Assembly (NCBI GenBank): GCA_950295325.1
Contig: OX485806.1
Coordinates: 26,906,001 to 26,970,000, forward strand
Length of the DNA stretch: 64,000 bases
DNA from: Polytrichum commune
Taxonomy: Eukaryota; Streptophyta; Polytrichopsida; Polytrichales; Polytrichaceae
Direction: 5' to 3'
Shown: positions 1 to 56,029 of the stretch, one piece after another
Numbering within the stretch: position 1 is the first letter of the stretch
Layout: each line of letters opens with the position of its first letter
Notes under the pieces: generated by a model
Database searches by the model: none
Seen by the model: only the letters and a program-made list of their open reading frames with translations
Told to the model about the DNA's origin: nothing
Program-made: the position numbers and the translations under genes

Positions 1-2745
1 TATGCCCCAAAATATTCCCAGACATTGTAGCCAAGCATGATTTTTATAAGCATGTTCAATACAAATGATTCTATGAAATAGTGATGGGATTTTGCTCCAA
101 GTGGACTTTGGAATTACTCCGTTGATAAAGATGACTTCAAAGAAGTGCAAACATGATTTCATGAAGGTTCCGAGATACTTCATGAACTTTCTTACCAATG
201 TCACCGGTGTTTTACCAGTCTCATGAACTTTTTATATTAGTTCATGATTCTTCTAAACCAACTTGACATGTGGTGAACCTCAGTTTCATGATAGTGGACC
301 CTTATCTCTAGCAATTTCGTGAATCTTCGAAACAGTTTCATAACTCTTTTCACACTATGTGGTTTTCATATTTATGAACTTTTGAACTTCTCACCTCCTC
401 GTTTCGCAGTCTTTGCCTTCTCATTGTTCATCGGATTCTTTTTGTTCTAGTTTACTTGGAAGCCTCTAGCCTTACTGTCAATTTTTCTTTGGTCAAATTA
501 ATGGCGATGTACAAGCAATCACAACAAACATGGTCCCATGTTGGATAAAAGAGGTCAATCAAAATTCTAGTAGGGCTAGTCACGGGGAGCGATTAGGAGA
601 ATCTTGTAAATGATGTACTGTTCTTTGTGAAATAAGTCATATAGTTAAATCACTGCTTAGGATAAATTTCCATGACATCTAAGCTGGCTCCAAGGCCATT
701 GAACCTCACGAACCAAGAAATTTATTGATCAAGAACAAAAATTTGGACCCAAGGAATTAACTCTATGGTTTGGGTTCAAAGTATGAAAAAAATATGAAGT
801 GGCGCTAATGTGGTATCGCTAACATGCCATATATTTGTGTTATCCGCTCAAGATAATATTCTTATCATGTGGAGAAGTTCATCTTCAAGCTTAGGTCTAG
901 TCTTGAGGTGGGTAGTGAGGGATGTTATGGGTGTTTTTGAGCCCCAAGTATCTTGGACCTAGATCTAATGTAAACCCAAGGGTGAATGTTCACAACATCT
1001 ACCAAGGGTGAGGGGAGGGAAGAATGAAGAATTGATTAGTAATGTAGAGCGTAGGGTCCTTAATGTATAAAAAAACTAAAATCAACTCCTAAATTGATGG
1101 TATAAACCTTGAGTTGGTCTATTCAACATGAAAACATGTGCTATTTATTCTAGCTTTGTAAATATAGTAGGCATATTATTCATATAATCCTAGTTGTATT
1201 TCTACCTTTAGGTTTAGACTCAATTATAATGAAGTGGATAACCTACAAGAGGTCCACATGAATATTTCATCCAATATGTGAACCATATTCATTCTTGAAA
1301 TTCAAGATTTACAAATACTCTTAAATAAATATTTGAAATAAATTTTGATTTTCATAAAACCACTCTTTGGAAGCCCTAAAGGTTTCTCACTGTGAAGCTT
1401 GCAAGGCGGACTGAGGTTGGAGCTCGTAGGTGGTTTTCCTTCTCTTCGTCTTGTGGTTACTTCTTGTTCCACTCATGAGATTGTTGTTGCAAAATGTGAT
1501 GTTTTGGGGGTTACTGTAATGTCAACGTTTGGACATTGGTTTATGATTCCCATCTTCACCTTCAACATCAATAGTTTTTGGACAGTGCATTACCTTTGCT
1601 TGTACATTATTATGTACAAATTTTGGTTCAACCAAGTGGGTTGGTGTTTCTCAATGACGGCCATTGCCTACTTTTGTTCACACTGAATACAAGAGCGCAA
1701 TTGGTATATGTCTTGTCAGGGTCACCGGCTCCCTACAATCCCCAATCTTATTATTTAGTGTTGCCAAAGGATAGGCTCACTATAGTGAAGTTTGGTATAT
1801 TGTATGTCACACCTAAAGTTTGATTATCTAGAGCCAGAGACAATGATTATTCATTCTTAGTGAGATGTGATTGTGTGATATCGTTTATCTCTCAAGAAGT
1901 CAAGAAAAGAGGGAAAAAAGCAAATTAGTGAAAACATTAACCACCAAGACTTGGTATTTGGGAAGGTCAATAGGATGCACCGCAAAATTGGCAATAGATG
2001 GATTAAGTGTCGACAACCAATCGACCTCTAAATTTGTTTGAGTTACATCCAATGAATGAACAAGTGTTCAATGACTTCATCAATGATAAATAAATATGTC
2101 TTCCTAAGAGTATTTTATCCATATCTTTCACGTAAACTTTCTCGTGTATACATATGATTGGAGTCTAAACGATTTAGTTATTTTTCACTTGTGTATATAT
2201 TTGAGGGGATTTCTAGCTATATGTTTGTATGTATGTCATTTTTATGAGGAGGAAAATCTTGTATATTAGGGGTATTAATTTCATGGTCATACATGCACGT
2301 GGTTCCCGGTTCTAACAATGTGCCCCCCCCCCCCCAAAGCATTTTCTCTACCAATATAATTGATGAATCATTTTGCCAAATTTTCATATAATTATCTTAC
2401 ATATAGTTGTGAACAAGACTGAGTACATTGTATACAAACTCAACTTCAACTTCCATTGTTAGCTGAGTCAAATTAGAATACAAAGTGATGAAGTGATCAA
2501 AGCAAGAAGTTAAGTAATCAATTGCATAAATATCCAACCAAAAAGCAAAAAAGGTTTAGGGTTTCTAAAATAGGAAATATTGAAGTGGTTAGGGTTAAGT
2601 ACTCGCTTTTTTTCGCCACCACTCTTCCAACATTGACATCTTTGTGTGCATTGCGTAGTTGGGAACATCGTGAGATTTCTTGTACATTGAGTAGCCTTGG
2701 TTCCATAGTACGTGAGGTGCAATTTGTAGAATCGTTTGTAGTTGT
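1..2745. other. No recognised gene
   Basis: AT-rich DNA with many stops in all frames. Two overlapping short frames at 1399-1686 and 1578-1823 (+) resemble no family I know and look like chance. A C13 tract lies at 2323-2335. No terminal inverted repeat for the Tc1-like element that follows could be found here. Confidence 0.5.
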
Positions 2746-3760
2746 ATGCCTCCGTTGTCTCCAGAACAAAAGCACCAGGCTTTGGTGCAACTTAGAAGTG
2801 GTGTTTCTACTCGCAAAGTTGCCACTTTAGTGGGCATGAGCCAATCTTCCGTAGCGCATCTGAGGAAGGATGTAGGGGGTGATATTGAGAAACAAAGAGG
2901 AGGGCGTTCAAAGTTTCTTGCAGACCGAAAGAAGAGGCGTTGTGTCACTTTTGTTACTAAAGGTCGACTTGGAACTGCATGTGCATCAACAAAACAACTT
3001 CGATCTTAAACAAGTAAATTGTTCTCAGACATCACTATGAGGCATGCTTTGAGAGAGGTTGGATTGGATGCACAAGTGCAGCAAAGGAATCCATTAATAA
3101 GTCGTTAACTTGTTCTCAAATGCATGAGGTTTGCTCAAAGGTATGAAAATTGGATCATTGATGATTGGAAACGCGTGATTTTCATTGACGAGACAAAGAT
3201 AAATAGGTTTAACTCAGATGGTAGGTCGTGGTGTTGGATTGGAGATGAAGTATATGTTGGACCTCAACATGTCCATCAGAATGTGAAGCATGGTGGTGGG
3301 TCAGAGATGATTTGGGGATGCATGATGACTTTTGGGCCGGGAACATGGTACAGAATTGAAGGTAGGATGGATGAGCATCCGTACAAATTTATTTTAGAAA
3401 ATTTCTTGTGGTCCACTATACATAATTACAATCTGAATCCAAGTAGGTTGGTCTTTCAACATGATAATGATCCCAAGCACACAAGCAAAATCGTGCAAGA
3501 ATGGTTGGCATCACAACCATTTCAACTCCTTCAATGGCCTGCACAATCTCCGGATTTGAATCACATTGAACACTTTTGGGCACTCAAACGGCGCTTGAAC
3601 AAATTTACGACACCTCCAAGAGGCATCCAAGAATTGTGGGAGCGTGTGTGTACAGGGTATCCCAATTTTCAGTGAATAGAATTGCATGGCGCTTTATGAG
3701 AGCATACCACAAAGAATTGACATTTTGTTGAAGAGTGGGGGTTACTGGACCAATTACTAA
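2746..3760 (+). pseudogene. Tc1-like (DD34E) transposase, broken
   Basis: Remnant of a Tc1/mariner-superfamily transposase, the enzyme that cuts and pastes its element at TA sites. Starting at the ATG, an N-terminal helix-turn-helix (about residues 4-40, containing STRKVATLVGMS) is followed by the DDE domain. The catalytic residues are all present: D148 in [11 protein letters not shown]240 in [10 protein letters not shown] and E275 in NHIEHFW, with 34 residues between the last two (DD34E, the Tc1 signature). Two in-frame TAA stops interrupt it, at 3007-3009 and 3106-3108. After YPNF at about 3672 the frame shifts by one base; the true C-terminus (ESIPQRIDILLKSGGYWTNY) continues in the next frame to the TAA at 3758-3760. 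The restored length of about 338 codons is typical for Tc1. No flanking inverted repeats were identified. Numbering counts the stop codons. The family call is secure; inactivity follows from the stops. Confidence 0.93.
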
Positions 3761-4917: not shown

Positions 4918-4925
4918 TAAACTTA

Positions 4926-5425
4926 GGGCCACTTCACACACGAGCCAAGAGCCGTGACCGTGAAATTGCGAGAGCCCAAAAGAAAGTGTCCAAAGGCCGT
5001 CCCAAGACACCTCCAAACTCATGTAGTGTGGTCATGGACCCTCAAGCGTAATGTGAAGTCATATGTGACTGGGGGCCTTAACCAAATGCTATTTCAATGA
5101 ATATCTATTCATGTGGGTCCTCACACATGATAAAATAGAATAATTCAGTGGTTGTGAGTGTTTGGAGTGCCATGGTCTCCCGGTTTTGTGTTAGGCCTAC
5201 TTCCAAGAGGTGATTTTTGAAAGTAGTCCAAGTGACTGTGAAACATGATGCATTCGATGCCATGTAGGAATCCACGGAGACTTTACATCCATCTTGCATT
5301 CACATACTCCGTTGGTCCCTCAAGGATAGTGTGAAGCAAACTTGGACCAGCTTTGCCTTTTCCACCAATGAGAGTTCTTCAAGTATATTGGTCACGGGCT
5401 CTCAATCTTGTGTGTGAAGTGGCCC
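4926..5425. mobile_element. HbB MITE (PIF/Harbinger-like), 500 bp
   Basis: Ends in the inverted repeat GGGCCACTTCACACACGAG / GGGCCACTTCACACACAAG with TTA on both sides (4923-4925, 5426-5428). Non-coding; open frames inside it are not genes. Relatives: 6520-6993 (opposite orientation), 37781-38245 and the longer pair at 7432-8637. The left end continues CCAAGAGCCGTGACC; the right end carries ACCAATGAGAG, which lets orientation be assigned in other copies. Confidence 0.9.
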
Positions 5426-5461
5426 TTACTCATTGGCAAGGCAAGGCAAAGCAAAGCAAAT

Positions 5462-6426: not shown

Positions 6427-6519
6427 TAGCCATCTCCCACCAAGTATATGTTAGGTTACACTAATGATAAATAGCTTCACTATTAGTGTCACCACTCGGC
6501 ATTCAAGAGTGCTTACTAC

Positions 6520-6993
6520 GGGCCACGTCACACACGAGATTGTGAGCCCGTGACCATTACACTTCAAACACTCTCATGGGTGGAAAAGGCGGAGCCGGTC
6601 CAAGTTCGCTTCACACTACGCTTGAGGGACCAACAAAGTATGTGGATTCCTACATGGCATTGAACGGATCATGTTTCATGGTCACCTGGACGTTTTCCAA
6701 AAACCACCTCTTGGAGGTAGGCCTAATACAAAACCATTGGGAGACCATGGCACTCCAAACGCTCACAATCGTTGATATATTCTATTTCATCATGTGTGAG
6801 GACCCGTATGAATATAAGTTCATTGAAATAGCATTTGATTGAGGTCCCGGTCACATATGACTTCCCACTACGCTTGAGGATCCGTGACCCCACTACATGA
6901 GTTTGGAGGTGTCTTGGGACGCCCTTTGGACACTTTCTTTTGGGCTCTCACACTTTCACGGTCACGGCTCTTGGCTCACATGTGAAGTGGCCC
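6520..6993. mobile_element. HbB MITE, 474 bp, inverted orientation
   Basis: Same family as 4926-5425 but reversed: GGGCCACGTCACACACGAG with the ACCAATGAGAG-type end on the left, and GGCTCTTGGCTCACATGTGA...GGCCC on the right. Flanking triplets are TAC and TAA, a one-base-decayed TWA duplication. The apparent 88-codon frame inside is part of the MITE. Confidence 0.85.
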
Positions 6994-7018
6994 TAACTTA
7001 ACTTAACTTAACTTATAG

Positions 7019-7233: not shown

Positions 7234-7431
7234 AAGCACTGCAAGCAGATGTGGAGGAGGTCTCATTCACAACGAATATACATATAAAGAGTATGGGCCA
7301 CTGTGACAGAATATGCCCTCCTTATAAAATGCCCCAAAAAACTGAGGCTGGATAACAGGATTCTCGTGCTGTATGTGCAGGTAAAAGATAGATACCACTT
7401 TTCTGGAAAGCACACCATTGTATGGTATTTA

Positions 7432-8637
7432 GGGCCACTTCACACACAAGGCTGAAGGCCCCTGTCCATGGCAATGTAAGGGCCACTTCACACACGAGCC
7501 AAGAGCCGTGACCTTGTAATGGTGAGGACCCTTGACTCTCATCCAAAGGCCGTACCATGGGTGTTGGGAAAGCCATTTTATGTAGTCTTTGGCCCTCAAG
7601 CATTGTGTGAAGTGAGAATGAACCATGTTGCGGGACCATTGCATATTTTGTTGGCGGAAAAAGAGGGGAGGATTTGGTTTAATATAATATGTCTCCAAGT
7701 TTATCAATTTAAGATAACTACTTGGTGGTGTTTGTCTGTCCTGGAATCTGTCTTGGAATCTGTCCTGGAATCTGCCATGCAGTCTGTCCTGAAATCTGTC
7801 CTGCTGGAAAAAATATTAAAAAAATCATGGTCTCCCGGAATTTGCGTCAAGCCCACCTCTTGGAGGTGGGCCTGACGCAAATTCCGGTAGACCATGCACC
7901 CTTATCCATAACTAGCCATGTAGGACTCCATGTAGACTTTTCATCCACGAACTTTTCTTTGGGCCTTTAGGCCTTCACCTCCTAGTGTGAAGTGAACTTG
8001 GACGGTCTCCGCCTTTTCGACCAATGAGAGCTCTTACATTGCCATGGTCAAGGGCCTTCAGCCTTGTGTGTGAAGTGGCCCTAAGAGCTCTCATTGGTCG
8101 AAAAGGCGGGGACCGTCCAAGTTCACTTCACACTAGGAGGTGAAGGCCTAAAGGCCCAAAGAAAAGTTCGTGGACGAAGAAAAGTTTACATGGAGTCCTA
8201 CATGGCAGGTTGTGGATAAGGGTGCATGGTCCACCGGAGTTCGCGTCAGACCTGCCTCCAAGAAGTGGGCCTAATGCAAATTCTGGAAGATCATGACTTT
8301 TTTAATATATTTGTTCTTCAGCAAGGCAGATTACAAGACATACTGCATGGCATATTCTAGAATAGATTTTAGGACATATTCCACAACAGAGAAACACCAC
8401 CAAGTAATTCTCTTAAATTGATGAAGTTTGATACATATTATATTTAACCAAATCATCCCCTCTTTTTCCACCAACAAAATGTGCAATGGTCCCGCAACAT
8501 GGTTCATTCTCACTTCACACTATGCTTGAGGGCCCAAGACTACATAAAATGGCTTTCCCAACACCCATGATACGGCCTTTGGATGAGGTCCTCACCATTA
8601 CAAGGTCACGGCTTTTGGCTCATGTGTGAAGTGGCCT
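7432..8637. mobile_element. Outer HbB MITE carrying a sister copy inside
   Basis: Flanked by TTA (7429-7431, 8638-8640). Without the inner copy and its duplicated TAA it is about 601 bp, almost exactly the length of the inner copy (602). It lies in the opposite orientation to the inner copy: the GCTGAAGGCCC end comes first and the TTGGCTCATGTGTGA end last. The last base of the right end has mutated (GGCCT instead of GGCCC). Confidence 0.9.
7480..8081. mobile_element. Inner HbB MITE, 602 bp, inserted head-to-head
   Basis: Complete element from GGGCCACTTCACACACGAG to its inverse, flanked by TAA (7477-7479, 8082-8084). It landed 48 bp inside the outer copy in reverse orientation, so 7480-8034 and 8082-8637 are near-complete inverted copies separated by 47 bp. 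It also has its own near-perfect hairpin at 7826-7896 around CCACCTCTTGGAGGTGG and a short run of TCTGTCCTGGAA-like repeats at 7735-7803. Confidence 0.92.
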
Positions 8638-8797
8638 TTAGTGTCATGAACATGATTGGCAAACTAGCCTAAACTAGATGCCTAGAGGTCTCATCGTATT
8701 GCATCTGTTAATTGTCAACATGATACTATTCGTCAACACAAGTAACTTTTTGAACAGGGAAAAAACATATACACTATGATATTTAATGTTTCACATT

Positions 8798-37548: not shown

Positions 37549-37780
37549 GACCATTGTTTCTAATAGTGAACTAACAGCAAAATATTGCAGTCAAATTCTT
37601 TGTCTACATGGAACTTACGTTTACTAGGTAGGTCAGACGGGTCTCCATACGGCCACTTTGGTCGTCTTTCTTGGTCGGTAGACTGCTTCAGAATTTATAA
37701 GTACTATGTTGGAAAAGGCTTCAGGTGAGAACAGTCACACCTCGTCTAATATTACTACCACCATTTTTAGGGTCATCATA

Positions 37781-38245
37781 GGGCCACTTCACACATGAGC
37801 CAGGAGCCGTGACCATGAAATTGTGAGAGCCCAAAAGAAAGTGTCCAAAGGCCGTCCCAGCACACCTCCGAAATCATGTAGTGTGGTCACGGACTCTCAA
37901 GTGTCGTGTGAAGTCATATGTGACCGGGCCTTCAACCAAATGTTATTTTAATGAATGTCTATTCATGGGGGTCTTCACACATGCTAAAATAGAATAAATC
38001 AACGGTTATCAGCATTCAAAGTGCCATGGTCTCCGGGTTTTGTGTTAGACTTACATCCAAGAGGTGGTTTTTGAAAATAATCCAAGTGACTATGAAACAT
38101 GATCCATTCGATGCCATGCAAGAATCCTTGTAGACTTTACATCCATCTTGCATTCACCTACTCTGTGGGTCCATGCCCTTTCCACCAATGAGAGTGCTTG
38201 AAGTGTAATGGTCACAAGCTCCTAGTCTCGTGTGTGAAGTGGCCC
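37781..38245. mobile_element. HbB MITE, 465 bp
   Basis: GGGCCACTTCACACATGAG to its inverse, with ATA on both sides (37778-37780, 38246-38248). Same orientation and layout as 4926-5425. Confidence 0.85.
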
Positions 38246-38439
38246 ATAGTCTATACCATCAAAAGGCTAAGTTAACATTTGATTTGATTTGATTTGATTT
38301 AAACTATTATTACAATAAATTTGAGACAGAAGGCTTAGCCAACGCCAAAAACATTAAGAATCAAGGAAGATGTGTCCACTTTGAAGGGAGGTGGAGCCCC
38401 TCGGAAGTGCCACACCGCCACATAAAAAGTAAAAGAGAA

Positions 38440-54689: not shown

Positions 54690-56029
54690 CAGGGCATAAA
54701 ATTGACACCCTGGGGGGTGTATTTTGCTTCCTAGAGTGTCCTAGGACACCCAAATCTCAAACAGGGTGTCCCTGAGGACACCCAAAAATCCTACAAGGGT
54801 GTCCTTTTTACACCCAAAAAAAATTCAGGGTGTCCCCTGTACTTGTAGGGCCTATCAGCGTATATGTTTGACAAAGTTTTTGCAAGTTTTTCTTTTTTGA
54901 CACGCAAAAACTTGCACAAAAAAAAAATGCACGTCAATTGACACGCACATTCTAGAAACTGACACGTACTGTGACTTTGTGAAGAAAAAAATCACATGTC
55001 AATTGACACACTAGAAATTGAAATGACATGTATTACTTGAGTACTATAAAGTGCAGCTCAAGTATCCGGAAAACATAACCCATAACAGTAGGAGAACTTC
55101 CTACACTCACTCACATACTTAAGTTCAACTTTGCTCTTGCAATTTCCTTTGTAACCGGGAACTAGGACGGTGAATGGAGAGCGAGACTAACTAGGAACAT
55201 GGCGAGGCAAATGTTTCTATCACCGTGGTGCCTCCACATCCTCCACTCAATATGAGTTTTTTCTTGCTTCCAACCAATGTGAGTTTTTCTTGCTTTTCAA
55301 CCAAAATTGTTTTGAGCAATTCCCTTTGAATCACATGCTTTTAGCCCTGTCTGTTTTTCAATAGACTTGACACTTCTTCATCGAAATGCTCGTTTATGGC
55401 TTCAGAGTTTCATTGACCACTTCTGCACTAATGGAGGGAATCTTTTTGATGAGCGTGGTTTAAAATCAGAGCTTCGAGGTTTTTTGGATACACTTCATAT
55501 TTCATGTGGTGGTCTTAAAATGCACCAAGCTTGGATGGTTTATTCTTCCAATTTGGACTATGTTGGAAGATATCCTCATATGACAAAGTTGTGGCAAGCT
55601 GTTCTTGTAATTCCTGCTAGTACAACTTCTTGTGAGAGAGGGTTTTCTACTCAAAATCATATTAAATCTACTTTACGGTGTAGTTTGGTATTAGAGACTT
55701 TGGAAGCACAAATGAGAGTTGCAATGGCAAAAATCCCCATAGAGGCCATTGACTTTGAACAAGTATGGGTAAAGTGGTGTGCTATGAAAGGCCGCCGCTT
55801 GTAGGTTTGATTTGCATTGCAAGTTATGATATGTAGTGATTTTTTTTTTTAATTGAAAAATTGAAATGATATTATATATTTTTCAAAATTGTACCTATTT
55901 TGACCAAAAAAAATTTAAGAGAAATTTATGAGGACACCCAAAAATTGGAGCAGGGTGTCCTTGGGACACCCAAAATTTGGGACAGGGTGTCCCCTGGAAA
56001 TTTGGCTAGGGTGTCAAATTTATGGCCTG
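54690..56029 (+). mobile_element. hAT-2 element, 1340 bp, internally deleted
   Basis: Inverted ends CAGGGCATAAAATTGACACC and CAGGCCATAAATTTGACACC with an exact 8-bp duplication GTAGTGCT (54682-54689, 56030-56037). The empty site, with a single GTAGTGCT, is intact in the sister HbA copy at about 25330. Both subterminal regions carry repeated AGGGTGTCC / GGACACCC motifs, likely transposase-binding sites. It retains only the C-terminal part of its transposase gene. Confidence 0.95.
55316..55804 (+). pseudogene. hAT transposase, C-terminal part only
   Basis: An open frame of about 160 codons ending at TAG 55802-55804. The last 60 codons are a clear hAT dimerisation domain: RYPHMTKLWQAVLVIPASTT, SCERGFSTQNHIKSTLRCSL, then ETLEAQMRVAM (PAS/T-x-x-x-ER-x-FS core). 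Upstream is LTLLHRNARLWLQSF and FDERGLKSELRGFL, the usual lead-in. The catalytic DDE core and BED finger are absent, so it cannot be autonomous. No convincing ATG opens the frame; CTGTTTTTCAATAG at 55351-55364 resembles a 3' splice site, so the frame may be a last exon beginning at about 55365. It is intact across the retained region, consistent with a young insertion. Confidence 0.88.

Follow-up and report, generated by a model that had tools for sequence, protein, structure and literature searches.

Jiang and Wessler (2001, Plant Cell 13:2553) reportedly used the nested MITEs of maize and rice to read insertion preference. To judge by the title of that work, those elements resemble the locus described here in that MITEs lie within other elements and show an insertion preference, whereas in Polytrichum commune a single site 46 bp inside the MITE's own end has been struck repeatedly. 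Self-insertion of longer mPing-type elements is raised as a hypothesis (PMC10288884) and nested plant LTR retrotransposons are described as targeting particular regions of other elements (PMC6911290). For mPing/PIF, another paper gives a 3-bp target site duplication (TSD) and an insertion preference reaching 9 bp (PMC2836001). The P. commune family has in common with these elements the 3-bp TSD and a preference extending beyond it, but it also has TGA or TCA duplications in 3 of 36 copies. Within the available parts of the literature a MITE with a recurrent internal landing site was not found, which is not to claim that none is in print.

The other system to be compared is Mu killer of maize, which carries a partial inverted duplication of mudrA (PMC3440606, also for the following statements). 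Silencing individuals had short antisense transcripts and read-through sense transcripts accompanied failure to silence, while longer transcripts may also contribute through a hairpin; because of this transcript pattern, the hairpin model of Mu killer is proposed and not settled. The initial annotation of our locus had invoked Mu killer as its precedent. What remains of this precedent is the likeness of an inverted duplication of mobile-element sequence able to give double-stranded RNA, whereas silencing through the hairpin is disputed. Mu killer is the transposase gene sequence of an autonomous element duplicated by rearrangement; the P. commune nest, in contrast, is a MITE without recognised coding sequence that would have formed by plain transposition, and its arms are 88% alike. 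Since the four MITE frames are without a Pfam match, a hairpin from the nest would not target a transposase mRNA as has been proposed for Mu killer. The analogy is weak.

Structure and relative ages of the nest

The window, that is the whole 64-kb stretch of DNA analysed, has at 7429-8640 a MITE interrupted head-to-head by an inverted sister. This organisation agrees with the initial annotation, including its element lengths (the outer pieces of 48 and 553 bp add up to 601 bp, next to an inner element of 602 bp) and its TTA and TAA duplications. The nest comprises the following features:

7429-7431, no strand: left TSD (TTA) of the outer element
7432-7479, minus strand: left 48 bp of the outer MITE, one copy of the TAA target (7477-7479) included, 96% identical to the reversed right end of the inner element
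7477-7479, no strand: left TSD (TAA) of the inner element
7480-8081, plus strand: inner complete MITE, 602 bp, with a 16-bp perfect terminal inverted repeat (TIR); young copy, 0.66% divergent from the family consensus
7735-7803, plus strand: 12-bp tandem repeat of the TCTGTCCTGGAA type within the inner MITE
7826-7896, plus strand: internal hairpin of the inner MITE, an inverted pair with 34-bp arms, 94% complementary; this is the 71-bp self-complementary block carried by the MITE family
8082-8084, no strand: right TSD (TAA) of the inner element
8085-8637, minus strand: right 553 bp of the outer MITE; old copy, 8.75% divergent from the consensus, first base of its terminus altered (AGGCC vs GGGCC)
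8638-8640, no strand: right TSD (TTA) of the outer element

The outer MITE is split after its base 48, the duplicated TAA being counted, and because the target TAA is unbroken at the equivalent position of the reversed inner sister (GCAATGTAAGAGC), the insertion point is certain. The two arms are real, but to say that they pair almost completely is an overstatement: they align at 88% over 563 columns with 51 mismatches and 5 gap openings, a 97-bp stretch beside the loop being 98% alike. Besides lying close to the consensus, the inner copy is ~99% identical to many copies; the best identity of the outer copy to any of the other 40 aligned sequences is 91.8%, in a set biased toward young copies since its members were chosen as the most like the two queries. 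Judged by these sequence distances, a recent insertion went into an old host copy, and the two arms were probably never identical.

We regard the nest, with high confidence, as an ordinary nested MITE insertion, one of the many that have gone into this preferred target. An old Tourist-type (PIF/Harbinger-like) MITE entered at a TTA; after a long interval a young copy belonging to its own family transposed into it at the TAA found 46-48 bp from its end, presumably by the action of a PIF/Harbinger transposase. The inverted orientation is due to chance and gave the 1.1-kb imperfect inverted repeat. With such a TAA (C-TWA-G core) acting as preferred target on up to ~1,900 related copies, it has been hit many times and in both orientations. 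The nest needs no function; its hairpin is a by-product and is presumably idle.

Target preference and recurrence at the same TAA

The TSDs are equal in 36 of 37 fetched copies (TAA in 18, TTA in 15, TGA in 2 and TCA in 1, so that TWA accounts for 33 of the 36), and a C precedes, hence a G follows, the TNA at 40 of 72 flanks (36 sites, both strands read). This type of TSD together with the C/G flanks identifies a Tourist-type MITE of the PIF/Harbinger superfamily, and both this assignment and a strong potential fold-back are in line with what the initial annotation had put forward. The copies duplicating TGA or TCA in place of TWA are L006, L026 and L027, while L040 has unequal duplications (TGA/TTA). 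The MITE is ~600 bp long and its internal site is found, with at most 3 mismatches, at 942 places in a 408-Mb genome assembled into 64 contigs, ~406 Mb of it lying in seven contigs of 42-78 Mb. Four open frames were scanned, all within or overlapping the inner element and the left end, and none has a Pfam match. DDE_Tnp_4 domains are common in the genome (150 scored among 990 candidates); matching ends on both sides of a transposase gene, as an autonomous partner would have, were seen at none of the eight loci read of these 990. Rfam returned no match at gathering scores, and a scan for bacterial-type promoters, which is not applicable to a plant, gave chance numbers only.

A target profile was built from 36 other insertions. 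The nest site scores 6.26 bits and so ranks first among the 39 TNA sites of the outer element, as it does among the 35 of the inner one, near-end sites being omitted; the corresponding site of L001, a second head-to-head dimer described below, scores 5.62. Over the whole window, 109 of 5434 TNA sites score at least as high as the nest site and 191 of 5434 at least as high as the L001 site; such a score is thus not rare among the TNA sites of the window.

The same TAA has been hit elsewhere in the genome. The right-junction pattern occurs at 22 places genome-wide and its reversed control at none. The left-junction pattern occurs at nine places with at most 3 mismatches, and two of these have no more than 1; four of the nine are the window, L001, L051 and L057, and the other five have 3 mismatches each. 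Leaving the window aside, 19 of the remaining 21 places have a family alignment that picks up again exactly at the TAA; at L060 it starts two bases in, and at L047 nineteen family positions further on, with the short pattern present. A left junction was found at 11 of these 21 places, its end being degraded at L050. The window has one too, and both junctions are thus in hand for 12 of 22. At the remaining ten the right junction alone was found, the left one having diverged, been lost or lying more than 1.7 kb away. Full-length outer copies of the nest family are present at six of the 22 places (window, L001, L042, L050, L051 and L057), the other 16 lying, by our count, in shorter or partial relatives.

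Twelve inserts, counted by reading, have ends related to the nest family. Seven are inverted (window, L001, L045, L047, L049, L053 and L059) and five direct (L043, L044, L051, L058 and L060), which is no bias in orientation (p = 0.77). The other ten are elements with different ends, and one of these, L054, looks like a double insert. On the basis of junction-crossing alignments and end sequence we assign the inserts to some eight families; treating the two orientations separately makes this ten kinds. Junction-crossing alignments are 76-86% identical among L045, L047, L053 and L059 and 81-85% identical among L044, L051, L058 and L060; going by these sequences, each of the two groups may consist of composites that later moved as units.

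How many hits should be expected was estimated from preference and copy number. Restricted to A or T in its final place, the pattern of a TIR end with TNA directly after it has 4711 occurrences; at 61% A+T this corresponds to ~7,700 in total. The two main versions of the intact site are found at 942 and 976 places, at most 3 mismatches being allowed for each, and these sets may overlap. Relative to the mean TNA, such sites gain a factor of 15 to 22 from target preference. From a rough product of preference and copy number, the number of exact-TIR insertions should be 3-5, against nine seen among the 22 (P 0.006 to 0.05), the expectation resting on a profile of 36 sites and a TNA density taken from one window, while some junctions may copy one older composite. 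For these reasons we do not read the excess as real: target preference multiplied by copy number explains most of the recurrence, and there may be a modest excess above preference at the nest site. At a comparison site, the second-best TNA, there are two junction-like places for 323 intact copies, neither followed by a family alignment; confirmed insertions are zero there, with ~0.5 expected by our same arithmetic. The 22 and 2 places of the two sites do not compare like for like, given that 16 of the 22 are in relatives that are shorter or partial. We do not claim a special hotspot over and above target preference.

Origin of the dimers and their proposed silencing role

L001 (C4:16059200-16060900) is a near full-length head-to-head dimer at the same TAA, and L049 is a third inverted dimer at this site, partly full-length. 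Beside the L001 dimer, a third related element abuts the end of the outer copy at a shared TTA, forming a run of three MITEs. The possibility that the dimer moved as a composite unit, with L001 as the sister of the window nest, draws on their same TAA and same orientation, on 92% identity over an 877-bp alignment across the junction, and on the two outer copies, which have eight changes from the consensus in common, five of them absent from all others of the 41 aligned sequences, and which are paired in a tree (support 0.864, long branches). However, the two inner copies have no derived change in common and are 95.2% alike, each being nearer to other copies (99.3% and 95.8%), while the outer copies are only 86.5% alike, below their identity to other copies. 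An older subfamily to which both outer copies belong would explain the shared changes and the tree pairing. Given the unequal inner and outer distances, movement as a unit is disfavoured and we hold it to be highly improbable; compared in this way, the L001 and window dimers are two independent insertions. That the window structure results from a false inverted join in the assembly has next to no likelihood. Long palindromes are error-prone in principle, and nothing else was found in favour of such a join, whereas each element is flanked by a separate pair of TSDs, the two arms show 12% difference, another, independent head-to-head case is present and the 64-kb window contains no N.

The initial annotation had also suggested that the locus, if transcribed, could be a trans-silencing source for its whole family. 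In this reading a transcript would fold, be diced into siRNAs and silence the family in the manner ascribed to Mu killer. The physical premise of strong fold-back is right in the folding model. For a plus-strand transcript the predicted folding energy is -932 kcal/mol, the arms forming 513 pairs with each other and the longest unbroken helix reaching 93 bp. For a minus-strand transcript it is -923 kcal/mol with a longest helix of 65, as against -229 and -195 kcal/mol for the single elements alone; long double-stranded RNA is thus possible. Besides, the genome has RDR-type genes (24 matches to RdRP), and a review reports that MITEs transcribed from an adjacent promoter can yield RNA that folds and supplies 24-nt siRNAs (PMC12595863). 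When all changes are considered, transitions in the family have higher rates in CG and CHG than in other contexts, as methylation would give (0.048 per site and copy at CG, 0.065 at CHG, 0.011 at CHH, 0.005 at A and 0.007 at T, in 39 copies with the two outer copies dropped); but among singleton changes the CG/CHG excess is not significant (16 vs 38 at CHH, p = 0.19), and CHG transversions are raised too. Among 43 open frames of at least 70 aa in the 1-22 kb region, ten outside the nest were scanned against Pfam, and these show no sign of a transcript or gene adjoining the nest; Pfam recognises in them nothing but two fragments of a Tc1-type transposase, and the closer fragment ends 3.8 kb from the nest. 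The four MITE frames scanned have no transposase domain, similar inverted dimers are present elsewhere in the genome (L001 and, in part, L049), and the maize precedent is contested (PMC3440606). The claim of a special silencing source is not supported, and we consider a Mu-killer-like trans-silencer to be very unlikely. A broader reading, in which the preferred landing site at the MITE's own end would let bursts yield inverted dimers as potential hairpin RNA genes, and thereby a self-made silencing brake proportional to activity, we likewise hold to be most improbable.

As an ordinary nested insertion, the locus illustrates MITE nesting clearly, the relative ages included, in a moss, and it shows a MITE that itself contains a good target for its transposase. 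Should the dimers be transcribed, their recurrence at one site would provide a natural set of hairpin loci that differ in age, in which the idea of silencing by nested inverted copies could be tested directly.

The window holds further mobile elements. Three relatives of ~0.5 kb with the ends of the nest MITE lie at 4920-5428, 6515-6999 and 37779-38250, the former two facing each other as an 85-92% inverted repeat with ~1.1 kb between them. A Tc1/mariner-type transposase fragment is found at 2716-3672 (HTH_23 at 2716-3006, below the cut-off, and DDE_3 at 3109-3672, above it) and a hAT C-terminal dimerisation fragment (PF05699) at 55316-55801. Elsewhere in the genome, whose gene content points to a land plant and probably to a moss, SAM_LFY (LEAFY-type) domains occur at four places. 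Past one of these, at a distance of 1.4 kb, lies an open frame with its best match to the solved chain 4bhk, FLORICAULA/LEAFY homolog 1, the Physcomitrella protein.
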